Part shown: in pieces, positions 1 to 62,712 of the stretch
Layout of the letters: every line of letters begins with the position of its first letter
Position numbering within the stretch: position 1 is the first letter of the stretch
Source of the DNA: Deltaproteobacteria bacterium
GTDB lineage: Bacteria; Desulfobacterota; Binatia; UBA12015
Direction of reading: 5' to 3'
Length of the DNA: 64,000 bases
Assembly: GCA_016874795.1 (NCBI GenBank)
Contig: VGTG01000001.1
Location: 86,735 to 150,734, forward strand
Notes under the pieces: model-generated
What the model saw: only the letters and a program-made list of their open reading frames with translations
The model's database searches: none
What the model was told of the DNA's origin: nothing
Position numbers and translations under genes: made by a program

Positions 1-472
1 AGGTGACGTCGAACGAGCCGGCGAGATCCTCCGGGACGCCCGTGAAGAGACCGGTGAGAGCGCCCGGCGTCCCGAACGACGCCATCTCCGAAACGTCCGC
101 GAGCTTTCCCGGCGGTCCCGCGCGGAGCTTCGCGCCGTCCGCCTCGACGACGAACGGCTCGGGCGCCTCGACCTCCCAGCGAACGCGCTCGGGCGGCTCG
201 AACGACATCCGCCCCGTCGAGACGAGCGGCTCGCGCAGAAGGGCGACGTGCTTCGTCTGGCGAAAGCGAGCCACGAACGGCTTCGAGCCGCGGCGCGCGA
301 GCAGCGCGGTGAGCTCGGTCGCCGCAGAGCTCGTCTTCGCCGGAGCGCTCGGCGACGTCTCGGCGGCGACCACGGCTCGTCCGTCCGGGACGAGGGCCGC
401 CGCGCAGCCGAGGGAGGCGATCGCCGCCGCAGCGAAGCGTCGAAGCCGGGGCCGACTCCGGCCGGCGTCCAC
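1..472 (-). CDS. LolA-like outer-membrane lipoprotein carrier family protein (partial, 3' end beyond window)
   Basis: Minus-strand frame from GTG at 472: ...FVARFRQTKHVALLREPLVSTGRMSFEPPERVRWEVEAPEPFVVEADGAKLRAGPP..., LolA/aryl-polyene LolA-like pattern. Sits directly after the ACP on the same strand. Confidence 0.7.
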   Translation of the reverse strand, partial: MDAGRSRPRLRRFAAAAIASLGCAAALVPDGRAVVAAETSPSAPAKTSSAATELTALLARRGSKPFVARFRQTKHVALLREPLVSTGRMSFEPPERVRWEVEAPEPFVVEADGAKLRAGPPGKLADVSEMASFGTPGALTGLFTGVPEDLAGSFDVT

Positions 473-479
473 TCGAACC

Positions 480-749
480 CTACCCCGCTGCCGCCTGCCG
501 CTCGGACTGGATGAAATCGGCCAAGGCGTCAATCGAAGCGAAGGCCTTCCGGGCTGCGTTCTCGTCCGGGATCGCGACCCCGAACTGCTCCTCGATCAGC
601 ACGACGAACTCGAGCGCGTCGATCGAGTCGAGCCCGAGACCTTCGCCGAAGATCGGCTCCGAGTCGACGATCTCGTCGGGCGAGATCTCGAGCCGCAGAC
701 CCTCGACGAGGAGCTCTTTGGCGCGCTTGGCGATCTGGATCCGGTCCAT
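480..749 (-). CDS. Acyl carrier protein
   Basis: 89 aa with phosphopantetheine site GLGLDSIDALEFVVLIEEQFG. Confidence 0.93.
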   Translation of the reverse strand: MDRIQIAKRAKELLVEGLRLEISPDEIVDSEPIFGEGLGLDSIDALEFVVLIEEQFGVAIPDENAARKAFASIDALADFIQSERQAAAG

Positions 750-1823: not shown

Positions 1824-1883
1824 GCCCCGAGCATAGCGCCAACCGCATGTCGAGTCCCGGTGGCTCGCCCGCGCCCTCGTCAA

Positions 1884-3254
1884 CTACAAACGTGACCGAT
1901 CGAGCTTGCCACGCGACGTCCGCGGCAGCTCGTCGCGGAGCTCGATCGAGCGCGGGATCTTGTAGGAAGGAAGGCTTGCCTCGCACCCCCGCAAGATCTC
2001 CTCGCGATCCACGCCGGGAGCGGCCGCGACGACGGCGCGGAGACCCTCCACGACGTCCGAGCGCGCCTGCGCGACGACCACGACGTCGCGCACGCCGGGC
2101 ACGCGACGGATCACCGCCTCGATCTCGCCCGGATGCACGCGGTGCCCGTGGATCTTGACGAAGTCGACTGCGCGCCCGACGAGGTGGAGTCGGCCCGCCG
2201 CGTCGAGCCGGCCGAGGTCGGCCGTGAGGAGGCTCGCCTCCGAGATCTCCGGGCTCGCGACCGGAAAGGTCCCCGTGGCGACCGAAGCGCTCCGTACGCG
2301 CACGCGGCCGACGCCTTCGTTCTCGTCGACGAGATCGACGCGAACGCCGTCGAGCGGCGTGCCGACGCAACCGTCGGGAAGATCCGCTTCGCCCACGCGA
2401 TCGAAGGTGATGCCGCCGCATTCGGTCGCGCCGTAGAACGTCCGCGGCCGGAGGCCGAAGCGCTTCGCGAACGCCTCGCGAACGGTGGCGGGAAGCGGTG
2501 CGCCGGCCGAGACGACGAGACGCAGGGCGCCGAGCGCCGCGGCACCGCGCGCCGACGAGCGGCTCAGCACGTCGAGCAGCAACGGAACCGCGGGCCAGAC
2601 GGTGATCCCGCTGTCGGCGAGCACGGCGCGCAGACGGCGCGGAATCAGATCGCCGAGCAGCACCGCCGGCGCTCCGAGCGTCGCGAGCACGCCGATCACG
2701 TTGTCGAACGCGTATGAATGCGCGAGAGGAAGCGTGACGAGGTTCCGGTCCTCGGCGCGAAGCCCCATCGTCGAGACGATCTGCGCGACGCCGTGCGAAA
2801 GCGCGCTCTCGGAGACGGCGACCGCGCGCGGCTCGCCGGTCGAGCCCGAGGTGAGCTTCAGGACCGCGGTGTCGCGTGGAATCGCCGTCGCGGAGTTCCC
2901 TTCGCTCGGCCGCACCGTCCAGGACGTGTCGCAGACGACGCCGCGCGCGCCGAGCGAGCGGCTGATCGCCGCGACCTCCGCTTCGGAGCGCTCGCGATCG
3001 ATCGGCATCGGAATGCGGCCCTCGCGCCAGCTCGCGAAGACGATCGCGAGAAGCTCGGCGGAGTTCCCGAACCATGCGGGGACGACGCCTCCGGCCGGCG
3101 CGACGTCGCGCACGACGGCGGCAGCGTGGTCGATCCGGCGAGCGAGGTCGTCGCGCGTGAGAAGCGCACCGCCGTCGATGTCGAGCACGGCGAGCGCCCC
3201 GCCGTCTCGCCGGCGAAGATCCTCGAAGCCCGCGTGGAAACCCTCACCTGCCAC
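1884..3254 (-). CDS. AMP-dependent acyl-CoA/acyl-ACP ligase (ANL superfamily)
   Basis: LKLTSGSTGEPRAVAVS P-loop, TFYGATECGGITFDRVG, GRAVDFVKIHGHRVHPGEIE, C-terminal SRGKLDRSRL. Confidence 0.9.
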   Translation of the reverse strand: MAGEGFHAGFEDLRRRDGGALAVLDIDGGALLTRDDLARRIDHAAAVVRDVAPAGGVVPAWFGNSAELLAIVFASWREGRIPMPIDRERSEAEVAAISRSLGARGVVCDTSWTVRPSEGNSATAIPRDTAVLKLTSGSTGEPRAVAVSESALSHGVAQIVSTMGLRAEDRNLVTLPLAHSYAFDNVIGVLATLGAPAVLLGDLIPRRLRAVLADSGITVWPAVPLLLDVLSRSSARGAAALGALRLVVSAGAPLPATVREAFAKRFGLRPRTFYGATECGGITFDRVGEADLPDGCVGTPLDGVRVDLVDENEGVGRVRVRSASVATGTFPVASPEISEASLLTADLGRLDAAGRLHLVGRAVDFVKIHGHRVHPGEIEAVIRRVPGVRDVVVVAQARSDVVEGLRAVVAAAPGVDREEILRGCEASLPSYKIPRSIELRDELPRTSRGKLDRSRL

Positions 3255-3319
3255 GCCGACTCCCGAGCCCGTACCTGTTGCTCCAAACGACGGGTTTCGC
3301 GAGGATGGGTCGGGGCGGA

Positions 3320-4060
3320 ATGGATCTCGAGCTATCCGGCAAACGTGCCCTCGTCACCGGGGCGAGCCGTGGAATCGGCCTGGCGACGGCACGACGCCTG
3401 TCCGCCGAGGGAGTGCGCGTGGCTCTGAACTCGGGGCACTCGCGCGAGCCTCTCGAAGCAGCGGCCGCGGAGCTGCCGGGCGCGATGGCGTGCTTCGCCG
3501 ACGTCCGCGATCCCGCCGCCGTCGACGCCATGTTCCGAGCGATCAAGCAGGAAATGGGTGGAATCGACATCCTGGTGAGCAATGCGGCCGTCGCGCGCGA
3601 CTCCCTCGTGATGATGCTCTCACCGGACGCCTGGCGTGAGGTCCTCGACGTGAACCTCGACGGCGCTTTCCATTGCGCCCGGGCCGGACTGCGCTCGATG
3701 ATCGGTAGCCGATGGGGACGAATCGTCAACGTCGTGTCGCCGGCCGCGTTCCTCGGGAAGCCCGGCGCGGCGAACTACGCCGCCGCGAAGGCCGCGCTCG
3801 TCGCGCTGACGAAGACTCTCGCCGCCGAGTCGGCGCGCTACGGAATCACCGTCAACGCGCTCTGTCCGGGCTGGGTGGACACGGAGCTGACCGCGGGGCT
3901 CGGCGAAGACGCGCGCGCTGCGGAGCGCGCACGCATTCCCGCGGGACGATTCGCCGCTCCGGAGGAGATCGCGGACGCGATCGTGTTCCTCGCTTCGGAG
4001 CGCGCACGCTACGTCACCGGAACGACTCTCGTCGTCGACGGTGGCTTGACGATGCTCTGA
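3320..4060 (+). CDS. 3-oxoacyl-ACP reductase (FabG-like SDR)
   Basis: MDLELSGKRALVTGASRGIGLATA...NVVSPAAFLGKPGAANYAAAKAAL...LVVDGGLTML. Confidence 0.92.
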   Translation: MDLELSGKRALVTGASRGIGLATARRLSAEGVRVALNSGHSREPLEAAAAELPGAMACFADVRDPAAVDAMFRAIKQEMGGIDILVSNAAVARDSLVMMLSPDAWREVLDVNLDGAFHCARAGLRSMIGSRWGRIVNVVSPAAFLGKPGAANYAAAKAALVALTKTLAAESARYGITVNALCPGWVDTELTAGLGEDARAAERARIPAGRFAAPEEIADAIVFLASERARYVTGTTLVVDGGLTML

Positions 4061-4063
4061 GCG

Positions 4064-5293
4064 ATGCGAACGGTCGAGCAGAAGAAGCGCGTCGTCGTCA
4101 CCGGCCTCGGAGCGATCACCAGCGCCGGCCCGACCGCCGATCACCTGCGGCGTGCCCTGCACGGCGAGTCGACGTGTTTGCGCGAGGTCTCGCTGTTCTC
4201 GACCGAAGGGCTGCGCGTTCACATCGGCGGCGAGGTCGAGCGGATCCCGAGCTCGGCGCTCGCGACGACAGCCGCACGGAGGCGCGGCTCGCGCTCGGAC
4301 CTTCTCGCCCTCTGCGCCGTCGAGGAGGCGCTCACACGGAGCGGCCTCGATCTCGCGCAAACGTCGCGCGAGCGCATCGCGACCGCGCTCGGCAGCTCGA
4401 CGGGCGGAATGCTCGAGACCGAGTCCTTCTACGCCACGCGGCTCGAGGGGCGACCCGCGGGGCGCTTCCGCCGGCAGCTCCTGTCGACGTCCGTCGGCGC
4501 GCCGACGGAGCTCGTCGCCGCATGCGTCGGCGCGCTCGGACCGCGGCTCTCGCCGTCGACCGCTTGCTCGAGCAGCGCGATCGCGATCGCGATGGGACTT
4601 CTCTGGATTCGCTCCGGAGCGGCCGACGTCGTCCTCGCCGGCGGAACCGACGCGCTCTGCCGCATGACCTTCACCGGCTTCCACGCGCTGCAGGCGCTGA
4701 GTCCGAGCCCCTGTCAGCCGTTCGATCGCGGACGCCAGGGGATCTCGCTCGGCGAGGGCGCGGGCGTTCTCGTGCTCGAGTCGGAGGAGCACGCGACCGC
4801 GCGGGGTGCCGCGATCCTCGGCGAGATCGCGGGCGCCGGCATCTCGTGCGACGCCGCGCACCCGACCGCGCCGCACGCGCAGAGCCGCGGCGCGATCCAG
4901 GCGCTCTCGACCGCTCTCGCGGACGCCGGCGTCGAGCCGCACGAGCTCGACTACGTCAACGCACACGGGACCGGAACGCCGCAGAACGACGTCTGCGAGG
5001 CGACGGCGATTCGCACCGTCCTCGGCGAAGCGGCAGGACGCGTGCCGGTCTCCTCGACAAAGGGACTGATCGGGCATCTGCTCGGCGCGGCGGGCGCCGT
5101 CGAGTGCATCGTCACGCTGCTCGCGGTCGCGGAGGGAGCAGCACCGCCGACCTTCGGTCTCGTCGACCCCGACTCCGAGTGCATGCTCGATCACGTGCTC
5201 GGTCGGGCGCGGACCGGCACGCTCGCGACGGCGGCTTCGAACTCCTACGGCTTCGGCGGCAACAACTGCACGCTGATCGTCAGGGCGGCATGA
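4064..5293 (+). CDS. Beta-ketoacyl-ACP synthase (FabF-like, catalytically intact)
   Basis: TACSSSAIAIAMG, NAHGTGTPQND, KGLIGHLLGAAGAVE: Cys-His-His all present. Confidence 0.93.
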   Translation: MRTVEQKKRVVVTGLGAITSAGPTADHLRRALHGESTCLREVSLFSTEGLRVHIGGEVERIPSSALATTAARRRGSRSDLLALCAVEEALTRSGLDLAQTSRERIATALGSSTGGMLETESFYATRLEGRPAGRFRRQLLSTSVGAPTELVAACVGALGPRLSPSTACSSSAIAIAMGLLWIRSGAADVVLAGGTDALCRMTFTGFHALQALSPSPCQPFDRGRQGISLGEGAGVLVLESEEHATARGAAILGEIAGAGISCDAAHPTAPHAQSRGAIQALSTALADAGVEPHELDYVNAHGTGTPQNDVCEATAIRTVLGEAAGRVPVSSTKGLIGHLLGAAGAVECIVTLLAVAEGAAPPTFGLVDPDSECMLDHVLGRARTGTLATAASNSYGFGGNNCTLIVRAA

Positions 5294-6510
5294 GCGAGCC
5301 GATCGTCGTCACGGGGCTCGGCTTCGTCACGCCGCTCGGCACCGGCATCGAGGAGGTCTGGAGCGCCTTCACCGAGCACCGGAGCGGCGTCCGGCTACTC
5401 GGGGAGGACGACCCGCGGACGGCGCGCGGCGTCGATCCGAACCCGCTGCCGCCGTCGGGCCGGGCCGGCCTCGTGCGCGGCTTCCAGCCGCGCGATCACG
5501 TGAAGTCGCCGCATCTCCGGCGCATGGACTGGTTCTCGCGTATGGTCGTCGCCGCGACGGCACAGGCGTTCTCGGACGCGGCCACCTCCGATCTCGACGA
5601 CGAAGCGCGCTCGCGCTGTGCGATCGTGATCGGCTCGCGCTTCGGCAATCAGCGCGAAACGTCACGCTATCTCGAGCGCGTGATCCGTGCCGGTCCGTGC
5701 GCCGGACAGCCGCTTCTCTTCCCGAATCTGGTCTTGAACGCCGCGGCCGGCTACGCCGCGATCGAGCTCGGCCTCCGCGGGCCGAACCTGACGGTCTCCG
5801 AGCACGAGGCGTCGGGCGAAGCGGCCGTCGCGAACGCGATGGACCTCTTGCGAGGCGGGCTAGCGGACCTCGTCGTCGTCGGCGGCGCCGACGAGTTCGG
5901 AGAGGTCTATCTCGACGCGCTACGCGAGCGTCGGCTCCTCGATCCCGAGAGCGTGCCCCCCGGCAGCCCGCGCCGCTCGACGCGAGGCACGATGGTTCCC
6001 GGCGAAGGTGCTGCGGCGCTCGTCCTCGAGACCGCTTCGCACGCGCGAGCGCGCGGACGCGCGCCCTACGCGGCGGTCGCGTGCGCGCGAAGCGGTGCCC
6101 TCCCCGCAGCGCCGTACGGCTTCCCCGAGCCCACCGCCGCCGCGGAGCGTCTCCTCGCACTGACCGGGAACGGAAGCGGCGCGCCCCTGCAGGTCGCGGG
6201 CCTGATCGGCGGCGCTTCCGGTGCGGCGCCGCGCGATGCGATCGACGGAGCGCTTCTCGAAGCACTGCGTGCCCGTCAGGCGGAGCCGGTCACCTACGTC
6301 CGGCTCGACCGTCTCGTCGGAGAATGGGGAGGACGCGGTGCGCTCGCCGTCGCTCTCGCGAGCCTCGCGATCGCCCGCGGCAATCTGCCCGCGCTCGATC
6401 CAGGATCGCCGGAAGCAGCCGCCGCGATCGCACCCGGTAGGATTCTCGTCCCCGGCGCGGCGCGCGGCGGGGTTCTCGTGCCCGTCGTCGTGGAGAGCGC
6501 CGCGAATTGA
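5290..6510 (+). CDS. Degenerate ketosynthase / chain-length-factor-like protein
   Basis: KS fold start MSEPIVVTGLGFVTPLGTGIEEVW. The active-site Cys region reads LTVSEHEASGEAAV, and the second His region reads RLVGEWGGRGALAVA. Overlaps the preceding KS by ATGA. Confidence 0.85.
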   Translation: MSEPIVVTGLGFVTPLGTGIEEVWSAFTEHRSGVRLLGEDDPRTARGVDPNPLPPSGRAGLVRGFQPRDHVKSPHLRRMDWFSRMVVAATAQAFSDAATSDLDDEARSRCAIVIGSRFGNQRETSRYLERVIRAGPCAGQPLLFPNLVLNAAAGYAAIELGLRGPNLTVSEHEASGEAAVANAMDLLRGGLADLVVVGGADEFGEVYLDALRERRLLDPESVPPGSPRRSTRGTMVPGEGAAALVLETASHARARGRAPYAAVACARSGALPAAPYGFPEPTAAAERLLALTGNGSGAPLQVAGLIGGASGAAPRDAIDGALLEALRARQAEPVTYVRLDRLVGEWGGRGALAVALASLAIARGNLPALDPGSPEAAAAIAPGRILVPGAARGGVLVPVVVESAAN

Positions 6511-7839: not shown

Positions 7840-9405
7840 CTACCCGCGCGCGGCGGCACTTCGCGGCCGCGTGAGCTTGCCGCGCGCCGAACGCGGCAGG
7901 GCTGCAACGATCTCGAGGCGCAGCGCGCGCAGATGGCGGTCGAGGCGCGTTCGCACGTGCGCCGCGAGGCGGCGCGAAGCCGACACGGGATCCAGCCCCT
8001 CGTCGAGCACGACGTGCGCCGCGATCCCCGAGAGGCCGTCCGGAGACTCCTCCGGAAAGACGAGGCACTCGCGCACGCCCTCGACCTCGAGCAGCGAGCG
8101 CTCGATCTCGAGCGGGTGAACGAACTGGCCGCGCACCTTGAAGCGGTCGTCGACGCGGCCGAGGAAGCGGAAGCGGTCGTCGACGCGGCCGAGGAAGCGG
8201 AAGCGGCCGTCGGCCTCGACCGCGACTTCGTCGCCGGTCTCGCACCACTCGCCGTCGACCGGCTCGATCCGTTCGCTCTCGCCGTCGACGGACATCGCGA
8301 CCGCGCGGCTCTCGCCGCGCACGGCGAGCGCGCCCCGCGCGTGCGGTCGCGGCGCGACGACGCCGACGCGGACGTCGAAGCCCGGTACGACGCGTCCGAG
8401 CGAGCCCGGACGCGCTTCCTCGGCCGGAGCGGCGAGAAACGAGTTGAACATCTCCGTGCAGCCGAGGTTGTCGACGATCGGCTGGCCGAACGTGTCCCGC
8501 CAGCGGAGGAACACCGCCGGCGGCAGCGCTTCACCCGCGGACAGGACGATCCGCAGCGCGCGCAGTCCGTCGCGCCAGCGGTCGCGATCCGCGAGCCGCA
8601 CCATCGCCTCGAGCGACCACGGGCCGCTCACGAGCACGGTCGCCGCGTGCTGCTGCAGCGCACCGAGAACACTCGGCAGGAGCAGGTCGGACGGAAGGAT
8701 CGCCGCGCCGCGCGCGAGGAGCGGGAACAGGAAGGCGTTGCCGAGCGCGTAGACGAACGGGAGACCCGCCGTCGCGATCGTGCGATCGCCGCGGCCGAGA
8801 CGCACGATGCCCCGCCCGAACGCCTCGAACGCCGCGACCGGGCCGCGATGGCCGTGCACGACGGCGCGCGGCTCGCCCGTCGTCCCCGACGTGAACGTCC
8901 AGAAGGCCGGCTCGTCGGCTCGTACCGCAGGAAGCTCGAAGCGCTCGAGCGAGCCTTCGCCGCCCTTCGTCTCGATCCACGAGCGGATCCGGTTCTCGTC
9001 GACGAGCGGGATGCCGAGCGATCCGAGAAGACGTCTCTCGCCGAGCGCGCCCGCGACGCGAAAGCGGCGCGCGATCCGCTCGAGGCCGGCTGCCGAAAGC
9101 GGGTCGACGAGAAGCGGGATCGAGCGCGAGCCGAGTGCGGCGAGAAACGCGAGCGCCGCCGTCTGCTGATCGTACGCCGCGACGAGGAGCCGACTTCCCG
9201 GCGCGACCCGCGCGTCGATCTCTCTCGCGCCACGCGCGCTCGCGCGTGCCAGGTCGGCGTAGGTCCGCGTGCGCTCGCCGCCGAGAAGAGCGGGCGCGTC
9301 CGCGTCCTCTTCCAGAGCGGAGAGGACCGTCGCCCAGAGAAGGTGAGCGTGCGAGGACGGCGGCTTTCGCCGGCCCTGGGCGCGCGGGTGCGAGTCTCGG
9401 ATCAC
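7840..9405 (-). CDS. AMP-dependent ligase (benzoate/aryl-CoA-ligase-like ANL protein)
   Basis: FWTFTSGTTGEPRAVVHGH, NLGCTEMFNSF, GRVDDRFKVRGQFVHPLEIE, SARGKLTRPR. Contains a duplicated A8 hinge segment. Confidence 0.9.
   Translation of the reverse strand: MIRDSHPRAQGRRKPPSSHAHLLWATVLSALEEDADAPALLGGERTRTYADLARASARGAREIDARVAPGSRLLVAAYDQQTAALAFLAALGSRSIPLLVDPLSAAGLERIARRFRVAGALGERRLLGSLGIPLVDENRIRSWIETKGGEGSLERFELPAVRADEPAFWTFTSGTTGEPRAVVHGHRGPVAAFEAFGRGIVRLGRGDRTIATAGLPFVYALGNAFLFPLLARGAAILPSDLLLPSVLGALQQHAATVLVSGPWSLEAMVRLADRDRWRDGLRALRIVLSAGEALPPAVFLRWRDTFGQPIVDNLGCTEMFNSFLAAPAEEARPGSLGRVVPGFDVRVGVVAPRPHARGALAVRGESRAVAMSVDGESERIEPVDGEWCETGDEVAVEADGRFRFLGRVDDRFRFLGRVDDRFKVRGQFVHPLEIERSLLEVEGVRECLVFPEESPDGLSGIAAHVVLDEGLDPVSASRRLAAHVRTRLDRHLRALRLEIVAALPRSARGKLTRPRSAAARG
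8141..8206. repeat. Perfect 30-bp tandem duplication (2.2 copies) inside the ligase CDS
   Basis: aagcggtcgtcgacgcggccgaggaagcgg at 8141-8170 and 8171-8200, then aagcgg. Encodes RFRFLGRVDDRFRFLGRVDDRF. Confidence 0.97.
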
Positions 9406-50048: not shown

Positions 50049-51164
50049 TCAGGACAGGAGCCGCGTCCGCTCGACGAGCCAGGCGAGGCCGGCGACGCCG
50101 ACCGCAAGCGACACGCCCTTCGCGGCGATCGTCCCGTACCTCGTCCGACCCAGGAGCGCGAAGACCGGATAGCACGCGAGGACGAGCGCGATTTGACCGA
50201 GCTCGACCCCGACGTTGAACCCGGCAAGAGAGCGCATGAGACCGGAGCTCGAGAGATCGAGCTCGCGCAGAACGCCGGCGAATCCGAAGCCGTGCACGAG
50301 GCCGAACGCGAAGGTCAGCCGCCAGCGCGCCGCGTGGCCGCTCCGCCAGAGATTCTCCACGGCGATCCACACGATCGTCAGCGCGATCGCGACCTCGATC
50401 CAACGCGACGGGAGCTGCACGAGACCGAGCCCCGCGACGGCGAGCGTGATCGAGTGCGCGACCGTGAAGGAGGAGACGATTCCGATGAGCTCGCGCAGGC
50501 GGCTGACGACGAGGAGGCCGATCAGGAAGAGCACGTGGTCGAGGCCGCCGTAGATGTGCTGCACGCCGAGGATCACGAACTGCCCGAACTGCCGCAGCCG
50601 CGACGGCGGCGCCTCCGTGAAGTAATCGAAGTCCGGCTCCGCTTCGGTGAAGACGATCTCGAGCTCCTCGCGGCCTTCCTCGCGAACGTGCGTCAGGTTC
50701 GTGTGGCTCGGACCGAGCTCGGGCCAGACCGCGAGCGAGACCGTGAGAAGCTCCGGATACGCCGCGAGCGGCCTGCGGAACGGGAATGCGACGAGCGTCT
50801 GCGGGAAGGAGCGCTCGCGCACCGATTCGATCTTCGGCGGCCAGACCGGTGCGAGCGGCTCACCGAGAGACGGTGCGCCGCCGTCGAGCGAGAGCTCGAT
50901 CCGCTTCGCCAGGTAGCTCTGCACTGCGCGCCCCGCGTGCTCGCGCTCGCCGGCGTCGATCCGATGATCGCCGTCCGCGTCGAGGTCGACGATGCGGCGC
51001 AGGACGTGCAGATCGAGGACGACCTTCGCGTCGATCGCCTCGGAGCCGACGGCGACGTCGAGATAGCTCGTGTCCGCCTGGTGGGCAGCGGCCGGCGCCG
51101 CGCATGCGAGGACGAGCGCGGGGAGCGCGAAGGCGATGCGGAGCGCGGCGCTGCCGTACCTCAT
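50049..51164 (-). CDS. HupE/UreJ-like membrane protein with N-terminal periplasmic domain
   Basis: Signal peptide ending AAAHQADTSYLDV, then GVQHIYGGLDHVLFLIGLLVV, TVAHSITLAVAGL, AFGLVHGFGFAGVL. Confidence 0.88.
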   Translation of the reverse strand: MRYGSAALRIAFALPALVLACAAPAAAHQADTSYLDVAVGSEAIDAKVVLDLHVLRRIVDLDADGDHRIDAGEREHAGRAVQSYLAKRIELSLDGGAPSLGEPLAPVWPPKIESVRERSFPQTLVAFPFRRPLAAYPELLTVSLAVWPELGPSHTNLTHVREEGREELEIVFTEAEPDFDYFTEAPPSRLRQFGQFVILGVQHIYGGLDHVLFLIGLLVVSRLRELIGIVSSFTVAHSITLAVAGLGLVQLPSRWIEVAIALTIVWIAVENLWRSGHAARWRLTFAFGLVHGFGFAGVLRELDLSSSGLMRSLAGFNVGVELGQIALVLACYPVFALLGRTRYGTIAAKGVSLAVGVAGLAWLVERTRLLS

Positions 51165-53758
51165 TCGTTCTCCGTCCACGTGACCCAGACCGGCGACGTC
51201 CACACGAGCTCGTCGTTGTCCTGATGGCCGCGCACGTAGTAGACGCTCGCCTGGTCCGGCTTCGGATCCGGATCGGTCCACGACTCCTCGACGACCGCCT
51301 TCCCGGGAGCGAAGCGCTTCACGACGGCGCCGTCCTTGACGATCGCGACCTCGTCGAACGGCGCGGTCCCTTCGAAGCGCAAGCGCAGAGCGGGAGCTTC
51401 GTCGGTCGAGAATTCTTCTCCCATGAAGTGCGCTTCGTCCTCGGGGCCGGCCCAGAGCTCGGCGATGATGTCGTCCGTCGCGGCGTACACGCGGCGCGCG
51501 CGCATCGCTTCGAGGAGAGAGGCTCGCGTGGGCTCCTTCGCCCAGACCATCGCGTAGCTGATGTGCGTCGAATGGTGATCGCTGCTCGCGATGAACCCGA
51601 GCCGATATCCCTTGGCGAGCGCGTTCGAGACGAAACCCTCCTTCCGTAGACCATTCAGGAAGACTCCCGCCGGCTCGCGCGGTGCGCCCGGCATCTCGTA
51701 GCTGTTGCGGGAGCCCTGGTAGATCTCGACGAACGGCTCGACGGCGGGATCGTTGTTGCGCCAGTCCGTCCCCATGCGCGTCGCGCTCGTGTGTGGAGCG
51801 CTGATGCCGCCGAACTCGTGCAGATAGCGGTAGAGCAGCAGCGTATCCGGCGCGGGGGCGGGATTCTTCTCGTCCGAGAGCGGCAGCCGCGGCAAGGGGC
51901 GCACGCCGCGCTCCGCGAAGATCACGTTCCGGTGGCCTTCCGGGTAGGGAAGGCTCCGCTCGTACGAGAAGACCGTCGTGAACGTGCCGGGGATGTGGAA
52001 CGCGTCCGTGGTCTTCTGGATCATCCACCAGGGATATTCGCGGTTGTGCCCGTTGTCGTGATCACCGTTTCCGACCCAGTCGAGCGCCGCGACGTCGATG
52101 GCGTAGCGCCACATGTCCTCAAGCGGTCCATCCGCGCCGCCGTCGCTCGAGAGCTCGGTGTGGCGATGAAACTCGCCGCGGAGAAGCTGCATCGTCTCGC
52201 CGCGAAGACGGATCCGCGCGGCGCGCGAGCGCACGATCGCGGCGCGCTCCGCGAGCGTCGCCGCGCTCGGCGCGACGGATTCTGCCGGCGGAGAGGAGGC
52301 CGGACGGAGCCGCGGCGCTTCCGGCTGTCCCGCCGCGGAGAGATGCCCGACGTAGAGATCGTTGTCCCACGGATCGGTCAGCGCGAGAGCGACGTCGAGC
52401 CCGAGCGGCGCTTCCGCCGCCTTCCTCGAGATGCGCCGCTGCCGGTTGTCGCTCGCCCAGACGAGACCGATCCCTCCGTCCGGCGGCGAAACGACGGCGG
52501 GCACGCTGTAGAGCAGGTTGTCGCTGTTCGGCACGAGGATCGGACCCGTCCAGTGCCCGCCCTCGTAGTACGCGGCCCATTCGAGCCACGTCGTACCGAC
52601 GGTCGAGGACACGTCGACGGCACGGCTCCGAAACAGCAGCCACGGGCGTCCTGCGCGGTCGACCGCGAGACGCGAGACGTTGTGGAAAGGCTGGCGCAGA
52701 AGCGGCCGCGCCGCTTCCATCGCCTCGGAGATCGGCTCGTCGGTCGACGGCAACGGCAGCGGGGCGTTCTTGCGGCCGCGCGGCATCACCTTCTCGACGC
52801 TTTCCTCGGGCTCGAGCCACGTCCCGTCGGGAGCGAGGACGATCAATCCGATGCGCCGATCCTTGAGGAGCGGAATTCCGTCCGCGTAGTCGAGGGTGCC
52901 GTAGTCCTTTCCCCACGTCGGCCCGCTCCACTCCCAGGAGATCCACAACCGGCCCTCGTGGTCGTACGCGGCGGTGGCGCGCGCTTCGTACTCGGGGCCG
53001 TTCGCGACCGCCTTCGGCGCGCTCGGTCGTCCTTCGAGGTCGAGCTCGCGCAACCACACGTCGTAGTCGCCCTTGTCGTAGCCGTCCCAGACGATCGCGA
53101 CGCGCCCCGGATCGGCTTCGGTGCGCCGGCTCGCCGCGATCGCGGGAGCCCAGCTGCTTCGATCGCTCGTGCTGACGACGGTCTCCTCGCCGAAGTCGCC
53201 GTCCCGGAGCTGACGTCGCGCGAGGATGCGGAACACGCCCTCGCGTACACCCTGCCACGCGACCCAGACGCGCCCCGCCGCGTCGGTCGTCGCGACCGGA
53301 GAGACGTCGTTGCCCGGGGCCTGCGAGATCCGCACCGGATCCGACGCCTTGCCGTCCACGACCGGACGAGCCCAGACGTCGAACTGGCCTTCGTTCCGCT
53401 CCGACCAGAAGACCCAGACGCGATCCTGCGCGTCGACGGCGACCGCGACCTTGTACACGTCCCGCCCCGGCTCCGTGATCGGGATCGGTGACTTCGGCGT
53501 ACCCCCTCCCGTCGGGATCGTGCGGAGCCGCACCTGATCGCCGCCGGGCGGAGCCGTCAAGAACGAAAGATCGTCCGGGGCGGTACGGAAGTTCATCGGA
53601 CGCGCCTCTCCGGGCCGCGCCGGAACGAAGCGGATCCACGCTATGTGCTCGTTTCCCTTCGAATCGAGCGCTGCCGCGGGAAAGTCGTCGTCGAGCGGCG
53701 TCTTGATGAGCGGCTCGAACGCAGCGGTCCGCTCGACCTCGACCGCCCCGCCGAGCAT
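51161..53758 (-). CDS. DUF3604-family protein (beta-propeller-like region + PHP-like C-terminal region), probably 3' part of a split gene
   Basis: LLRGEFHRHTELSSDGGADGPLEDMWRYAIDVAALDWVGNGDHDNG...IASSDHHSTHISYAMVWA. Confidence 0.88.
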   Translation of the reverse strand: MLGGAVEVERTAAFEPLIKTPLDDDFPAAALDSKGNEHIAWIRFVPARPGEARPMNFRTAPDDLSFLTAPPGGDQVRLRTIPTGGGTPKSPIPITEPGRDVYKVAVAVDAQDRVWVFWSERNEGQFDVWARPVVDGKASDPVRISQAPGNDVSPVATTDAAGRVWVAWQGVREGVFRILARRQLRDGDFGEETVVSTSDRSSWAPAIAASRRTEADPGRVAIVWDGYDKGDYDVWLRELDLEGRPSAPKAVANGPEYEARATAAYDHEGRLWISWEWSGPTWGKDYGTLDYADGIPLLKDRRIGLIVLAPDGTWLEPEESVEKVMPRGRKNAPLPLPSTDEPISEAMEAARPLLRQPFHNVSRLAVDRAGRPWLLFRSRAVDVSSTVGTTWLEWAAYYEGGHWTGPILVPNSDNLLYSVPAVVSPPDGGIGLVWASDNRQRRISRKAAEAPLGLDVALALTDPWDNDLYVGHLSAAGQPEAPRLRPASSPPAESVAPSAATLAERAAIVRSRAARIRLRGETMQLLRGEFHRHTELSSDGGADGPLEDMWRYAIDVAALDWVGNGDHDNGHNREYPWWMIQKTTDAFHIPGTFTTVFSYERSLPYPEGHRNVIFAERGVRPLPRLPLSDEKNPAPAPDTLLLYRYLHEFGGISAPHTSATRMGTDWRNNDPAVEPFVEIYQGSRNSYEMPGAPREPAGVFLNGLRKEGFVSNALAKGYRLGFIASSDHHSTHISYAMVWAKEPTRASLLEAMRARRVYAATDDIIAELWAGPEDEAHFMGEEFSTDEAPALRLRFEGTAPFDEVAIVKDGAVVKRFAPGKAVVEESWTDPDPKPDQASVYYVRGHQDNDELVWTSPVWVTWTENE

Positions 53759-54304: not shown

Positions 54305-55720
54305 TCAGGCGTTCGGGGTCGACTCCACGGACGGACGGAGCAAGCGCCAGAGCTGGCCCTTGATCTTGCGCCGCCGGAGCTTCTGCAGGATCTCGACGTT
54401 CGTGCGGATGCTCTTCCCCGGCACGATCCAGTTCGCGTGCGAGCGCGCGTGCGCTTCGATGCGCGAGATCAGGTCGCCCTGCAGCGTCGGCGCGATGTAG
54501 AACCGCGGGTAGACGAGGTCGTCGTCGGGGTCGATCTGGCCGTCGCGGAGCGCGATGTCGACCATGCCCGTACCGGGAAGGATGCGGATCCCGGTCATCG
54601 CGATCACCGCCGTCGGCTGCAGCTCGTCCATCAGGTCGATCGTCTCCTCGACCGTCGCCTCGGTCTCGCCGGGACCACCGAAGATCAGGCTGTGGCAGAA
54701 CTTGAGACCGTGCTCGTGGCAGAGCCGCGACGTGCGGCGCAGGTCCTCGGCGTCGAACTCCTTCTTCAGGTTCTCGATCATCGTCGCCGAGCCGGCGTCG
54801 GTGCCGAACTCGATCGCCTTGCAACCCGAGCGCGCCATCAACGCACAGAGCTCGTCGTCGATGAACTTCGGATTGAGATAGCCGGACCATTCGACATCGA
54901 GCTCGCGGCGGACGATCTCCTCGCAGATCGCCTTCGCGTGGCGCATCGGCAGGTTGAAGATGTTGTCGACGAAGAACCAGTGGCGGATGCCGTGCTCCTC
55001 GCGGATCGCCTGGATCTCGTCGACGACGGACTCGGCGGTGCGCATGCGGACCTTCGACCCCTCGATCAACGGATAGCTGCAGAAGACACACTCGAACATG
55101 CAGCCGCGCTTCGTCTGGATGTTCAGGGCGCCGCCGCGCTCGTAATAGACCTCCATGTCGAATCGCTGACGCATCGGGATGCCGGTGACGTCGAGGTGCT
55201 TGATGCGCGTCGCCGCCGAGACGAGGACGCCGTCGCCCGCGCGCGTGCAGCCGAACTCGGGCGTGCTCTCGAGCGGCAGCCCCGCCGCGAAGCGCTCGAG
55301 GATCCACGGGAACGCTTGCTCGCCCTCGCCCGCGACGCCCGCCTCGGCACCGAGGAGCCGCAGGATGTTCTCGGGCATCACGGTTAAGCCAGCGCCGCCG
55401 AGAACGAGCTTCGCGTCGCTGCGGCTTCGGATCGCGTCGACGAGGGCCCGGTAGTCGTCGATGTACGACGTGTTGTCCGGGTAGGAGGTGGAGTCGAGGT
55501 TCCGGAGCGAGATCCCGACGACGTCGGGCGCAAACATTCGGAGCTTCTCCTCGACGGCAGCTTCTGCCTGCTCGAGGAAGCAGAGGTCCAGCGTCTCCAC
55601 CTCGTGACCGGCGCGCTCCGCGACCGCCGCCATGTACGCGGCGCCGATCGGGAAGACGGGGTCCGGGAGCTTCTCGGTGTTGGCCGAGATCAGGAGAACG
55701 CGCAGCGTCCTGCTCGCCAT
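54305..55720 (-). CDS. Cobalamin-binding-domain radical SAM protein
   Basis: B12-binding-like N-terminus VLLISANTEKLPDPVFPIGAAYMAAVAERAGHEVETLDL; radical SAM KRGCMFECVFCSYPLIEG. Confidence 0.92.
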   Translation of the reverse strand: MASRTLRVLLISANTEKLPDPVFPIGAAYMAAVAERAGHEVETLDLCFLEQAEAAVEEKLRMFAPDVVGISLRNLDSTSYPDNTSYIDDYRALVDAIRSRSDAKLVLGGAGLTVMPENILRLLGAEAGVAGEGEQAFPWILERFAAGLPLESTPEFGCTRAGDGVLVSAATRIKHLDVTGIPMRQRFDMEVYYERGGALNIQTKRGCMFECVFCSYPLIEGSKVRMRTAESVVDEIQAIREEHGIRHWFFVDNIFNLPMRHAKAICEEIVRRELDVEWSGYLNPKFIDDELCALMARSGCKAIEFGTDAGSATMIENLKKEFDAEDLRRTSRLCHEHGLKFCHSLIFGGPGETEATVEETIDLMDELQPTAVIAMTGIRILPGTGMVDIALRDGQIDPDDDLVYPRFYIAPTLQGDLISRIEAHARSHANWIVPGKSIRTNVEILQKLRRRKIKGQLWRLLRPSVESTPNA

Positions 55721-55762
55721 GCCTTTGAAAGCGATACCACGGGGTCTTGCGAGTCGAAACCG

Positions 55763-57164
55763 CTACCGACCGCGTGCGTCCTCGCGTGTCAAGCGACGTC
55801 GCCGTGCCGCGTTCTTGACCTGGCGGCGCGCGAGGTGGAACAGCGTCTTGCCGTCGAAGCGCGGCCACTCGAGCAGCGCCTCCATGATCGTGATCGTCTT
55901 GCGGCCCGAGCCGCGCCAGTCGCTGATCACGGACGGCTTGTAGATCGTGGGCGTGCGGAAGAGCGCGCTCCGGTCGAGGACCTCGTTCGGTCCGAGGCGC
56001 TCGATCGTGATCGGCATCCCGAGTCGCTCGCGGAGGCGGCGCTCGGCGTCCTCGGGATGCGGGCGCGATGGGTCGGCGACCTCCATCAGCAGATGCAGCT
56101 CGCGCGGGCGGATCAGGATGAAGAAGATGCGCGTCCCGAGCCGGTCTGCGAACTCGTAGGCCGCATCGAGGATGTCGTAGTGCATCGCGCGAGCGTCGCC
56201 GATCTCGACCGTCTCCTCGAGCCGCCCGAGGACCTCCGCGGTCGGACCGCCGCGCCCGCACGGACACGGATCGGCGTCGAGACGCACGAGATCGCCGGTG
56301 ACGTAGCGCACGAGCGGCATCACCTCGTGCACGAGGCTCGTGACCGTGACGATGCCGCGGCCGCCCGGTGCGATCGGCTTCCACGTCTCGGGATCGAGGA
56401 TCTCGAGCTCGAGGAGATCCGTGCAGAGGTGCAGGCGGCCGGAGGTACAGCCGACGCCCATCAGCATCGTCTCGTTCGAGCCGTAGATCTCGACGACACG
56501 GGCACCCCAGTCGCTCTCGATCGCACGCCGCAGCGCCGGCGGCAGGACGGCGCCGCCGCAGAAGATCACCTTCAGCGAGCCGAGGTCACGGCGCGGATCG
56601 ATCCCCTGCTCGCGCGCGAGCTCGAGCAGGAGCACGGGCTCGAGCGGCAAGCTCGCGAGCGCCGTCACCTTCAGCTTCTGCAGGAAGTCGAGAGCGCGCG
56701 TGAACGGGACGTCCCAGCTCACGTTCCCGGCGGCGATGTGGCAGGCCTTCGCCTCGCGGAGCGCCTCCTCGAACACGAACGAGACGGGCGCGAAGAGCGG
56801 GAACCGGTTCAGGAGGACCGTCTCCTCGTCGAGCTCCGGAACCATTCGGTGCACGTACGACGCCATCTCGCGGAGCTCTTCGAGGCCGCACCACGTCGAG
56901 ATCGGCTCGCCCGTCGTGCCGCTCGACTCGTGGTAGTGCCAGGCGCGCGCGGCGGGCACCGCGAGCATCCCGTACGGGCTCGCGTCGCGCAGGTTGCTCC
57001 TTTCGCGTGAACGGCAAGCTCTCGAGATCGGCGCGCGAGTGGAGCGTGTGACCTTCGAGGTGATGCGCGTAGAAGGGACTTCTCCGCGCGCGCTCGATCG
57101 CCGCACGCAGGACGGCGTCGCGATCGGTCGTACTCGCGGGGGCGGCTCCGAAGCTCTCTGGCAT
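55763..57164 (-). CDS. PaaK-like AMP-dependent ligase, apparently frameshifted near 56990-57005
   Basis: Main frame: YHESSGTTGEPISTWCG, VEIYGSNETMLMGVGC, LVRYVTGDLVRLDADPCPCGR. True N-terminus in another frame: MPESFGAAPASTTDRDAVLRAAIERARRSPFYAHHLEGHTLHSRADLESLPFTRKE. Confidence 0.85.
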
Positions 57165-57214
57165 CGCCGGCTATCCCAGCACGGGCAAAACAGGGCCGCC
57201 ACACGGCCGTACCC

Positions 57215-57901
57215 TCAGCGCCATCGCGTGACGAGAAGGGGTACGACGGTGAAGATGATTCGGACGGTGTCGATCCACGGGTCGTAATGGCTCACGAGCT
57301 CGCCGGGCGGCGGATCCCAGACGCGCACCGGGACGGAGCGGACGTCGATTCCCTGACGCGAAGCGAGGATCAGAACCTCGCTCTCGAACTCGTAGCGGTC
57401 GGCGCGCACGCCGAGGCGAAGCGTCGCATCCACGGGATAGATGCGGAAGCCCGACTGCGTGTCCGGGAACGTCTGCCACGCGGCGAGCGAGACCCACCAG
57501 TTCGCGAACTCGTTCCCGAAGCGGCGATGTCCCGCGACCTCGCCGTCGCGGATGCGCGCGCCGATCACGATTGCACCGGGATGCGCCGCCGACTCGCGCA
57601 GCAACGCCGGCATCTCCGCCGCGAGGTGCTGGCCGTCGCCGTCGAGGGAGAACGCGTGCGTGAACCCCTCGCTCCGTAGCCACTCGAGGCCCGTGCGGAG
57701 AGCGGCGCCCTTCCCGCGCGTGGCCGCGTGCCGCAGCACGGTCGCGCCCGCGGCTTCCGCCAGGCGCGCGGTCTCGTCGGTGGACCCGTCGTCCACGACG
57801 ACGACGCTCTCGACGTGCGCGAGCGCGCCGCGCACCACACCGTCCACCGTTGCCGCGACGTCGAGACAGGGAACGAGCGCCGCGATCCGTGTCGCGCTCA
57901 C
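57215..57901 (-). CDS. Glycosyltransferase family 2 protein
   Basis: IAALVPCLDVAATVDGVVRG, VVVVDDGSTDETARLAEAAGATVLRHAATRGKGAALRTGL, SLDGDGQH, DTQSGFRIYP. Confidence 0.94.
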   Translation of the reverse strand: MSATRIAALVPCLDVAATVDGVVRGALAHVESVVVVDDGSTDETARLAEAAGATVLRHAATRGKGAALRTGLEWLRSEGFTHAFSLDGDGQHLAAEMPALLRESAAHPGAIVIGARIRDGEVAGHRRFGNEFANWWVSLAAWQTFPDTQSGFRIYPVDATLRLGVRADRYEFESEVLILASRQGIDVRSVPVRVWDPPPGELVSHYDPWIDTVRIIFTVVPLLVTRWR

Positions 57902-57908
57902 TCCGCCG

Positions 57909-58691
57909 CTACGCCTCGCGGGCGCGCGCGAGCCGCGCGGCGATGCGGGAGCGCACGTCGTCGCGGAGCGCGTCGCGATCGTCGATCGTCATCGAGGTCG
58001 TGTCGATCGGCGGGAGCACCTCGATCACGACCGTGCCCGGACGGATCGAGAGATACCTGCCGCGCGGCATGACGCCCGACGTCCCGTGGATCGCGACCGG
58101 CACGACCGGCCGCTTCATCTGGATCGCGAGCGAGAAGGCGCCCTTCTTGAACGGCTGCAGCCCGCCCTCCGCCGAGCGCGTCCCCTCGGGGAACATGATC
58201 AGCGAGAACGCCCCGTGTCCGTGCGCCTCGAGACGGTTCAGGCGCTCGATCGACTCGCGCGGGTCCTCGCGGTCGATCGACACCATCCCGAGCGTCTTCA
58301 TCACCATGCCGAGGACCGGCTCCTTGAAGAGCTCGCGCTTCGCGGCGAAGCGGTTGTTCCCGGGGAGGTACCCGAGGAGAGCCGCGATGTCGTAGTGGCT
58401 CGCGTGGTTCGGCGTGATGATGCTCGGCTCGCTCGGGAGGTGCTTCGTCCCGAAGAGCTTCACCGTCACGCCCGCCGCAACGCCGAGAGCACGCGCGGAC
58501 GTCTTCGCCCAGCGCCAGGCGATCTCCTGGTTCACCTGGTGGAGACCGACCGCGACGCTGCCGCAGCTGAACAGCATGCCGCGGAAGATCATGCGGTTCA
58601 GGAAGATCCGGAGGTCCGACGCGTCGGCGGCGCCGATCGGCGTGACGAGCTCGTCGGCCCACTCTTGCGGCGGAATGCGAAGCTCCTGCAT
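57909..58691 (-). CDS. 1-acyl-sn-glycerol-3-phosphate acyltransferase-like protein (PlsC family)
   Basis: ITPNHASHYDIAALLG (NHx4D), FPEGTRSAEGGLQPFKKGAF, VVPVAIHGT. Confidence 0.93.
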   Translation of the reverse strand: MQELRIPPQEWADELVTPIGAADASDLRIFLNRMIFRGMLFSCGSVAVGLHQVNQEIAWRWAKTSARALGVAAGVTVKLFGTKHLPSEPSIITPNHASHYDIAALLGYLPGNNRFAAKRELFKEPVLGMVMKTLGMVSIDREDPRESIERLNRLEAHGHGAFSLIMFPEGTRSAEGGLQPFKKGAFSLAIQMKRPVVPVAIHGTSGVMPRGRYLSIRPGTVVIEVLPPIDTTSMTIDDRDALRDDVRSRIAARLARAREA

Positions 58692-58696
58692 GGCTT

Positions 58697-59623
58697 TCAG
58701 GTACCCCAGACGCGGTGAAACTGGAACCACTGGTGCGGATGGGCCCGAACGTGCCCCTCGAAGCTCCGCACCACGTCGCGCATGACCGCGAAGAGCTCCT
58801 CGTCGCTCGCCCCGCGCGGAATGCGCCGTGTCGGCTCCGGAAGGAAGTCGAACACCCTGCGCCCGAGCCGCGCGACGAAGACCGGCCAGAGCGGGACGTC
58901 CGCCGCGCGCGCGAGCGCGAACGGGCCGACCTGGAACTCCGCCGGCTTCCCGAAGAACTCGACCGCCCGCGTCACCTGCCCCGGTCCGGCGCGATCGAGC
59001 TGGATCGCCACGATCTCGCCGCGGCGGAGCGCGCGGATCATCTCGACCGAGGCGAAGAGGGAGGAGTCGGAGTGGATCACGCGGAGCCCGTGCCGCTCCC
59101 GCTTCGACGTGTTGAAGCGTTCCACCGTGCGGTTCGCCTCGGTCGCCATCACGAGGTTCACGGGCCGGTCGAGCTTCTGCATCACCCGCGCGCCGATCTC
59201 CCAGGACCCGAAGTGCGAGGTGAGGACGACGAGCCCGCGGTCGCCCTCGAACAGCGCGTTCGGGTCGAACCCGGGCGGCACGCGGATGTCGAGGTCGAGC
59301 TTCTCGTCGAGCTCGGCGCCGTGGACGTCGTGTCCCTCCGCCTCGAGCGTCTCCTCGAAGACGTAGGCGAACTCGACGAAGGTGCGGAGCGCTTCGCGGT
59401 GATCGCGGACGAAGCCGCGCGAGCCGTGGACCTGCCGGAGGTTCTCGATCACGGCGCGACGGTTCCGCCCGATCAACGCGAAGAGGAGCGCCGCGATCAC
59501 CGGCGGCGAGCCGCGCCGCCACCACTCCGGCCCGTACACCGAGCCGAGGTACGCGAGCCGCCTCCAGAAGAGCCCGTCGTACCGGAGCGCGCCCGCGAAG
59601 CCGGACCTCCCCTCCGCATCCAC
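58697..59623 (-). CDS. LpxL/HtrB-family lysophospholipid acyltransferase
   Basis: GLVVLTSHFGSWEIGARVMQKL, FEETLEAEGHD, VEFFGKPAEFQVGPFALARAADVPLWPVF. Confidence 0.92.
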   Translation of the reverse strand: MDAEGRSGFAGALRYDGLFWRRLAYLGSVYGPEWWRRGSPPVIAALLFALIGRNRRAVIENLRQVHGSRGFVRDHREALRTFVEFAYVFEETLEAEGHDVHGAELDEKLDLDIRVPPGFDPNALFEGDRGLVVLTSHFGSWEIGARVMQKLDRPVNLVMATEANRTVERFNTSKRERHGLRVIHSDSSLFASVEMIRALRRGEIVAIQLDRAGPGQVTRAVEFFGKPAEFQVGPFALARAADVPLWPVFVARLGRRVFDFLPEPTRRIPRGASDEELFAVMRDVVRSFEGHVRAHPHQWFQFHRVWGT

Positions 59624-61564: not shown

Positions 61565-61768
61565 ATGGTTCCGCGCCGGCAGTTCGACTCTCTCGAGGTC
61601 TCCCTGCTGCTCTGCCCGCGGTGCCGCGTCGCGCAGCCGGTACGGAAGCGGCTCCTCCTCTGTCTCCCCGAGGGCGACAAGTACGAGTACCTCTGCACGC
61701 AGTGCGGGAGCACGTGCGGCGACAAGATCGAGGAGCCGCCGCGCGCCGCGGGCTCGGTGCTGCGTTGA
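61565..61768 (+). CDS. Small zinc-ribbon protein
   Basis: 67 aa with CPRC...CTQC. Confidence 0.6.
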   Translation: MVPRRQFDSLEVSLLLCPRCRVAQPVRKRLLLCLPEGDKYEYLCTQCGSTCGDKIEEPPRAAGSVLR

Positions 61769-62712
61769 CGCCGCGCCGGATCGTCTCGCTCCTCCCCAGC
61801 GCGACCGAGATCGTGTGCGCGCTCGGGTTGCGCGACCGGCTCGTCGGCGTGTCGCACGAGTGCGATCACCCCGCTGACGTCGTCGGCTTGCCGATCCTGA
61901 CGGCACCGAAGCTCGACGTGCACGGGTCGAGCCGCGAGATCCACGAGAGCGTCGGGCGCCTCGTCGGAGCGGGTCTCTCCGTCTACCGGATCGACACCGA
62001 GCGTCTCGCGGAGCTCGCGCCGGACCTGATCGTCACGCAGGATCAGTGCGACGTCTGCGCGGTCTCGTACGACGAGGTCGTCGAAGCCACGCGCGCGCTC
62101 GCGGGGTCGCAGGCGGAGGTCGTCTCGTTGAAGCCGCGTCGCCTGCAAGACGTGTGGAACGACGTCCGCGCCGTCGCCGACGCAGCCGGCGTCGCGGAGC
62201 GCGGCGAGACGCTCGCGCGGGAGCTCGAGGAGCGCGTTGCAGGGCTCGCGGAGAGAACGCGTCGTCTCGAGCGCTCGCGCGTCGCGTGCATCGAGTGGCT
62301 CGATCCGCTGATGGCCGCGGGCAACTGGGTGCCCGAGCTCGCCGAAGCCGCGGGCGGTACGGGCGAGCTCGTCGCCGCCGGCGCGCACAGCCCTTGGCTC
62401 GACTTCGCGGAGCTCGAGCGCGAAGCGCCGGAGGTGATCTGCGCGATGCCGTGCGGGTTCGACCTCGCGCGGACGGAAGGCGAGCTGCGCGGCGTTCTCG
62501 ACGATCCGCGCTGGTCCAGGCTCCCCGCCGTGCGCCTGGACCGCGTCTTCGCCGTCGACGGGAACGCGTACTTCAATCGTCCGGGGCCGCGTCTCGTCGC
62601 GTCGGCGGAGATCCTCGCGGGTCTCCTCCACCCCGAGGAATGCGGCGAGCTGGTCCCGCGCGGTGCAGCGGCGCGCGTCTCCGCGGCCGGCGCCGCGAGG
62701 TCGAGAGCATGA
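61765..62712 (+). CDS. BtuF-like cobalamin-binding protein lacking a signal peptide
   Basis: RIVSLLPSATEIVCALGLRDRLVGVSHECDHP...LAPDLIVTQDQCDVCAV...DRVFAVDGNAYFNRPGPRLV. TTG start overlaps upstream stop. Confidence 0.9.
   Translation: MTPRRIVSLLPSATEIVCALGLRDRLVGVSHECDHPADVVGLPILTAPKLDVHGSSREIHESVGRLVGAGLSVYRIDTERLAELAPDLIVTQDQCDVCAVSYDEVVEATRALAGSQAEVVSLKPRRLQDVWNDVRAVADAAGVAERGETLARELEERVAGLAERTRRLERSRVACIEWLDPLMAAGNWVPELAEAAGGTGELVAAGAHSPWLDFAELEREAPEVICAMPCGFDLARTEGELRGVLDDPRWSRLPAVRLDRVFAVDGNAYFNRPGPRLVASAEILAGLLHPEECGELVPRGAAARVSAAGAARSRA

Follow-up and report, generated by a model that had tools for sequence, protein, structure and literature searches.

A predicted aryl-polyene-type lipid pathway split between two loci, with a cobalamin-dependent radical SAM enzyme, in an uncultured Binatia genome

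Does a compact set of lipid-assembly genes that includes a cobalamin (B12)-dependent radical S-adenosylmethionine (SAM) gene make a product of its own, or does it belong to a pathway encoded tens of kilobases away? The question is raised by a gene block at positions 54305-59623 (block 2) of a 64,000-nucleotide stretch of a Deltaproteobacteria bacterium genome (Desulfobacterota; Binatia; GCA_016874795.1, contig VGTG01000001.1), referred to here as the window. Block 1 lies at 1-9 kb of the window and extends about 5 kb past its left edge. We favour, with moderate confidence and on sequence comparisons, the reading that a single outer-membrane lipid pathway of the aryl-polyene type is divided between the two blocks. 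This reading is based on homology, gene linkage and co-distribution.

Gene content, distribution and linkage of the two blocks

Block 2 comprises five co-oriented genes on the minus strand, encoding LpxL-, PlsC-, family 2 glycosyltransferase (GT2)-, PaaK- and B12-radical-SAM-type proteins (Table 1). All five proteins score above their curated Pfam cut-offs, and Pfam and NCBIfam searches bear out the gene types proposed in the initial annotation. The PaaK-like ligase that it listed is present, but its gene is not one open frame. Gaps of 5, 7, 50 and 42 bases, counted from LpxL to B12-radical-SAM, are consistent with a single transcription unit. Genomes of the same genus carry orthologues that are 66-82% identical and, wherever contigs show it, arranged in the same order; block 2 is therefore not a chance set of open reading frames. 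A DUF3604 gene (51161-53758) and a 164-amino-acid (aa) open reading frame downstream of block 2 were excluded because they are not beside the block in the sister species G001 (G numbers denote genomes, C numbers contigs and L numbers loci).

The genes of block 1 encode an acyl carrier protein (ACP), an isocitrate-dehydrogenase-like protein, an AMP ligase, FabG, a beta-ketoacyl synthase (KS), a KS-beta or chain-length factor (CLF), a radical SAM enzyme of the ThiH/NosL group and a benzoate-CoA-ligase-like protein. As a yardstick we used the ape cluster of E. coli CFT073 (apeA-R; PMC8253772), compared by phmmer; unrelated genes at the edges of that stretch were set aside. Shared with that cluster are a KS, a KS-beta/CLF, a ketoreductase, an ACP, a LolA-like carrier and an MMPL exporter, the last encoded just left of the window after the LolA-like gene (PF03176, L047); DUF3261 was not recognised in the export set. 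Judged by these matches, block 1 is an aryl-polyene-like scaffold. The GT2- plus LpxL-type and PlsC-type functions are also shared, and these come from block 2. GT2 aligns to the N-terminal half of ApeJ (residues 9-225; 110 bits, E 1e-34), LpxL to its C-terminal half (residues 341-549; E 3e-10), and PlsC matches ApeD (E 6.5e-9). On these alignments, GT2 and LpxL correspond to ApeJ split into two genes. Within the 64 kb, ApeJ and ApeD match block-2 genes only, despite a further GT2 gene at 20781-22223.

The window departs from the E. coli cluster in several respects. GT2 and LpxL are separate genes, the set is divided between two distant loci, NosL-like and PaaK genes belong to the starter branch, and a B12-radical-SAM gene stands in place of an ApeB-type methyltransferase. 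No counterpart of ApeI/ApeP, ApeK or ApeB was found near the blocks. FabA-like genes occur elsewhere in the genome, and the clusters of G020 and G111 include a dehydratase. Since the dehydratase (ApeI/ApeP) was not found with the blocks, we describe the window set as working like an aryl polyene cluster, not as a full member. The aryl-polyene likeness first suggested for block 2 holds for the scaffold, but neither a dehydratase nor a thioesterase was found close to either block, and the starter branch (NosL-like, PaaK and B12-radical-SAM) is unlike those of known aryl polyenes.

Distribution was examined in 58 related genomes from 37 genera and in a wider set of 148 genomes of the class. Presence was called at score gaps picked after viewing the scores (LpxL at least 225 bits; KS-beta at least 140; B12-radical-SAM at least 390, plus a truncated copy in G002). 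PaaK of block 2 and the NosL-like gene of block 1 occur in the same 14 of the 58 genomes and in none of the other 44 (p 1e-13). By genus, eight have both, none has a single one and 29 have neither (p 2.6e-8). Genome-level p-values overstate independence because of shared ancestry, and the genus-level count is the safer figure. The carriers span several families that also include genera without either gene. Eleven of the 14 have the B12-radical-SAM gene too, and at that similarity no other genome among the 58 has it; across the wider set, 14 genomes have it together with the NosL-like gene, one has it without, three have the NosL-like gene only and 130 have neither (p 7e-16). LpxL and KS-beta also co-occur (both in 21 of the 58 genomes, KS-beta only in two, LpxL only in six, neither in 29; p 1.6e-8).

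In several relatives the genes of both blocks share one locus. About 35 kb of G038 hold PaaK, KS, B12-radical-SAM, FabG, KS, KS-beta, NosL-like, HalFAD, LpxL, GT2 and PlsC genes, and similar loci occur in G057, G020, G111 and G112. PaaK lies 50-105 bases from the NosL-like gene in G020, G025 (twice), G032, G045 and G015, and LpxL is at most a few kb from KS-beta in G045, G032, G052 and G020. In the sister species G001, some 28 kb of a single contig separate the two blocks, compared with about 46 kb in the window. Taking distribution, linkage and homology to the E. coli ape cluster together, the blocks are most likely one pathway, which in this genus is most likely split. The initial annotation had left open whether block 2 completes the 1-9 kb pathway and had proposed co-occurrence across genomes as the check; the outcome favours completion.

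Table 1. Features of blocks 1 and 2, with positions in the window
Feature	Position	Strand	Evidence and remarks
LpxL/HtrB-type acyltransferase, 308 aa	58697..59623	-	PF03279, 85 bits; 27 of the 58 class genomes have an orthologue
PlsC/ApeD-type lysophospholipid acyltransferase, 260 aa	57909..58691	-	PF01553, 97 bits
GT2 glycosyltransferase, 228 aa	57215..57901	-	PF00535, 56 bits
PaaK-like adenylate-forming ligase, proposed to activate an aryl acid	55763..~57164	-	PF00501, 53 bits; +1 frameshift near 57000
B12-binding radical SAM enzyme, 471 aa	54305..55720	-	PF02310 and PF04055; TIGR04072
LolA-like carrier (ApeL-like)	2..532	-	PF03548, 28 bits; runs on past the left window edge
Acyl carrier protein (ApeE-like)	480..749	-	PF00550; 53 bits to ApeE
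Isocitrate/isopropylmalate-dehydrogenase-like protein	804-1883	-	Adjoins the block-1 ACP; conserved in the genus
Acyl/aryl-AMP ligase, weakly like the starter-loading synthetase ApeH	1884..3254	-	PF00501, 145 bits; 26 bits to ApeH
FabG-type ketoreductase (ApeQ-like)	3278..4060	+	116 bits to ApeQ
KS	4064..5293	+	PF00109/PF02801; active-site Cys in 'STACSSS'; 206 bits to ApeO
KS-beta/CLF-like protein	5290..6510	+	'SEHEASG', no Cys at the active-site motif; 44 bits to ApeR
NosL/ThiH-like radical SAM enzyme, proposed to process an aromatic amino acid	6546..7719	+	TIGR04158, 186.7 bits; frameshift near 7410
Benzoate-CoA-ligase-like AMP ligase	7840..9405	-	TIGR02262, 213 bits, below the cut-off of 375

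Block 2 itself is composite, with a triad of LpxL, PlsC and GT2 genes joined by the PaaK and B12-radical-SAM genes. Given that the triad is widespread in the class, also in genomes without NosL-like and PaaK genes and often with other B12-radical-SAM genes, we regard it as a general lipid-assembly module. The specific link of block 2 to the NosL-type pathway lies in its PaaK and B12-radical-SAM genes.

The benzoate-CoA-ligase-like gene adjoins the NosL-like gene across the genus, with synteny in G001 and G002. In sister species, a pair of FG-GAP/ASPIC-UnbV repeat protein genes stands beside the NosL-like gene (L163:9495-11750, L165:1-1078), as it does in clusters of other families; the window is without it. 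Elsewhere in the window, this bacterium has a plus-strand gene (11634-14039) for an STT3/AglB-type oligosaccharyltransferase whose AglB domains are of the archaeal kind (PF02516, PF18079).

The starter branch and the B12-radical-SAM enzyme

The radical SAM enzyme of block 1 is related to NosL, whose substrate is tryptophan. An orthologue of the frameshifted window gene matches NosL structures (210 bits), and the TRE arginine and the GSxxVxPY segment of NosL are present in every full-length NosL-like protein. The best NCBIfam match of the PaaK-like protein is BagE/FevW (157 bits, cut-off 800), with FlxY, also one of the top-scoring families, at 71 bits (cut-off 520). These ligases of bagremycin/ferroverdin and flexirubin biosynthesis are likewise PaaK-like and act on aryl acids, but the window protein scores far under both family cut-offs. 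It also reaches only 76.6 bits to TIGR02155, the phenylacetate-CoA ligase PaaK (cut-off 646), and so is labelled PaaK-like only. An aromatic ammonia-lyase was considered as the starter enzyme and rejected, as none is present in the genus.

In nosiheptide biosynthesis, the NosL product 3-methyl-2-indolic acid is adenylated by NosI onto the carrier NosJ, and NosN then methylates the carrier-bound ring (PMC5585349). The window has the same kinds of component, in a possible series: a NosL-like radical SAM enzyme, a ligase, a carrier protein and then a radical SAM methylase. It differs in having no ribosomally synthesized and post-translationally modified peptide, a ligase that is PaaK-like, a NosL score under the family cut-off, and a methylase that is B12-dependent, whereas NosN is of class C.

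The B12-radical-SAM enzyme has its cluster motif, CX3CX2C, at C207/C211/C214. The nearest solved structure is TsrM, the cobalamin-dependent tryptophan C2 methylase (PDB 6WTE/6WTF), both by sequence (207 bits) and by fold, with template modelling (TM) scores of 0.76-0.78 for a model of predicted TM score 0.83. In TsrM, access to the lower face of cobalamin is closed off by Arg69, while Glu273 sits on the unique iron and keeps the 5'-deoxyadenosyl radical from forming (PMC8992657). With the alignment counted from its printed start, R73 of the window enzyme takes the lower-axial position of Arg69 and is invariant in 93 of 93 homologues. The position of Glu273 is held by I254, and by V, I, L, T or S in 94 of 94 homologues, never by an acidic residue. 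The two enzymes have in common the domain order, the lower-axial Arg and the cluster motif, and differ in the iron-coordinating position (I/V/L for Glu), in sequence (25% identity) and in gene neighbourhood. Since the iron-blocking Glu is missing, any methylation would probably proceed by 5'-deoxyadenosyl-radical chemistry, and the protein is predicted to be a methylase with a TsrM-like cobalamin site and ordinary radical initiation. A possible selenocysteine was rejected, the inspected 'TGA' flags being the genes' own terminal stops.

A periplasmic binding protein gene (61621-62712, plus strand; PF01497, BtuF-like from sequence) lies about 2 kb from the B12-dependent block and stays near block 2 in G001; it may serve cobalamin uptake. 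In one family (f8; L040, L041, L191), a unit of aromatic ammonia-lyase, B12-radical-SAM and GT2 genes is kept near a CmlS-like FAD halogenase/monooxygenase gene. Titles and abstracts of the open literature yielded nothing relevant on radical SAM enzymes or cobalamin in aryl polyene pathways, and no link was found in a paper on the Binatota.

Weighing the alternatives

Several observations weigh against a single aryl-polyene-type pathway. The frameshifts in the PaaK and NosL-like genes are the only two clear cases among the ~35 conserved genes compared. The NosL-like score is well below the curated TIGR04158 cut-off of 400, so the substrate and product of this enzyme are guesses. Neither the window nor the DNA to its left, covered over 20 kb for the dehydratase, yielded a dehydratase, a thioesterase or an ApeB methyltransferase. 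The class-wide occurrence of the triad in genomes without NosL and PaaK points the same way. Finally, in G016 and G055 the triad neighbours a canonical ape cluster equipped with a separate ApeJ and ApeD, and the triad's acceptor may therefore not be an aryl polyene.

The frameshifts could mean that the pathway is decaying in this genome, with PaaK and the NosL-like gene now pseudogenes. In PaaK, the N-terminal 55 codons (57164 to ~57000) are in a different frame from the rest, and alignment with two same-genus orthologues places one extra base near 57000. That each proposed starter-branch gene has one frameshift, and that none is clear in the ~33 other conserved genes, fits decay. Metagenome assemblies, however, commonly contain erroneous single-base insertions and deletions, and all other pathway genes are intact. 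Either assembly error or the decay or loss of this organism's starter branch may thus explain the frameshifts. We think decay doubtful while giving it real weight; it would be compatible with one pathway in the relatives, and G001, G002 and G003, of the same genus, have intact copies of both genes.

Alternatively, block 2 could be an independent glycolipid-tailoring operon in which the triad makes its own, perhaps methylated, glycolipid, and its link to block 1 would be one of shared ancestry or supply only. An LpxL orthologue is indeed present in 15 of the 44 genomes without NosL, triads without PaaK occur in G006, G010 and G007, and in G016 and G055 the triad is not within the canonical cluster. 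However, LpxL tracks KS-beta class-wide and lies close to it in four genomes, and PaaK follows the NosL-like gene with no exceptions. We therefore consider it unlikely that block 2 is a separate second lipid-tailoring locus for a methyl-modified glycolipid, one of the two options first raised, and retain the view that the two blocks form one pathway.

In L199 and L200 (G016 and G055), the canonical ape cluster includes an aromatic ammonia-lyase and directly adjoins the triad, a second set of GT2, LpxL and PlsC genes that has a B12-radical-SAM gene to itself, so that two sets for lipid assembly stand in tandem. We did not count a second ape-like cluster, which lies on contig C99 of the genome studied here (L185, G000:C99). 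About 20 kb of DNA carrying an ape-like cluster are 97-100% identical between this contig and part of G010:C30 (L189/L190), from another genus; one of the two assemblies therefore probably includes a misbinned contig.

The family assignment of the B12-radical-SAM enzyme raises the possibility of ladderane chemistry. It scores 400.3 bits to TIGR04072 (rSAM_ladder_B12), above the cut-off of 360, and the family name was presumably taken from the anammox cluster in which Kuste2803 was named a cyclisation candidate; the anammox and Desulfotalea clusters also have a 'phenylacetyl-CoA ligase' and a glycosyltransferase (Rattray et al. 2009, PMC2649909). The enzyme could then build or modify ladderane or polyunsaturated acyl chains, as proposed for Kuste2803. 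However, in a tree of 93 rows it did not group with the anammox enzyme. A single clade with moderate support (96/67) unites the window enzyme with its relatives from the class, and both halves of that clade are strongly supported. This clade adjoins other phyla, with the Kuenenia enzyme far off on a long branch. The Kuenenia protein, 35% identical, groups with Desulfobacterales and Rhodocyclales, and long branches leave its exact place unsure. Near relatives that bear names are deltaproteobacterial metagenome-assembled genomes of groundwater and soil.

TIGR04072-like genes are also widespread outside the anammox bacteria, in Nitrospirae, Myxococcota, Verrucomicrobia, Bacteroidales and others, and the best-conserved partners here are the NosL-like and PaaK genes, not the anammox set. 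Of 46 TIGR04072 loci of at least 12 kb, 21 carry at least two kinds of KS, LpxL, GT2, ACP, FabG, PlsC or FabZ genes, a raw count without a background rate. Cultured organisms with a TIGR04072 gene beside KS/FabG genes include Anaeromyxobacter oryzisoli, Ferrimonas futtsuensis and Alistipes. The family seems more closely associated with aryl-polyene-like lipid loci than with ladderanes. Thus, the window enzyme passes the family cut-off but sits in a separate clade, with no evidence for ladderane chemistry, and on the comparison with Rattray et al. and the tree we rejected this very improbable reading.

It is hardly credible that LpxL and PlsC are ordinary lipid A and phospholipid enzymes with unrelated neighbours: both families have housekeeping members, but the genome has a second LpxL-like gene (on C195; 78 bits to the block-2 protein), the block-2 type is missing from many genomes of the class, and the triad's order and co-distribution are conserved.

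A proposed pathway and its implications

On the preferred reading that blocks 1 and 2 encode one pathway, the NosL/ThiH-like radical SAM enzyme of block 1 would generate an aryl carboxylic acid from an aromatic amino acid. The PaaK-like ligase of block 2 would then adenylate this acid and load it onto CoA or a carrier protein, much as NosI does with the NosL product. By homology, the KS/KS-beta pair, ketoreductase and ACP of block 1 would extend the aryl starter. The TIGR04072 enzyme of block 2 could C-methylate the aryl or polyene moiety, probably by way of a 5'-deoxyadenosyl radical. GT2 and LpxL, as a split ApeJ, together with the ApeD-like PlsC, may attach the acyl chain to a glyco- or phospholipid anchor, and the MMPL and LolA genes may export the anchored lipid.

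More tentatively, and with somewhat less than even confidence, we suggest that these genes define a new subclass of aryl-polyene-type lipids in an uncultured class. Its aromatic starter would come from an aromatic amino acid by a NosL-type radical rearrangement, not via an ammonia lyase or chorismate; it would be activated by a dedicated PaaK-like ligase, and it would be C-methylated by a cobalamin-radical-SAM enzyme in which a TsrM-like cobalamin site is paired with a cluster competent for radical chemistry.

If this is correct, the organism would join radical SAM aryl chemistry to lipid anchoring; the route to the starter would be new, and the cobalamin methylase would have a mechanism open to testing. 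For most members of TIGR04072 the 'ladderane' name would be misleading, and cluster callers would miss pathways that, like this one, are split across distant loci.

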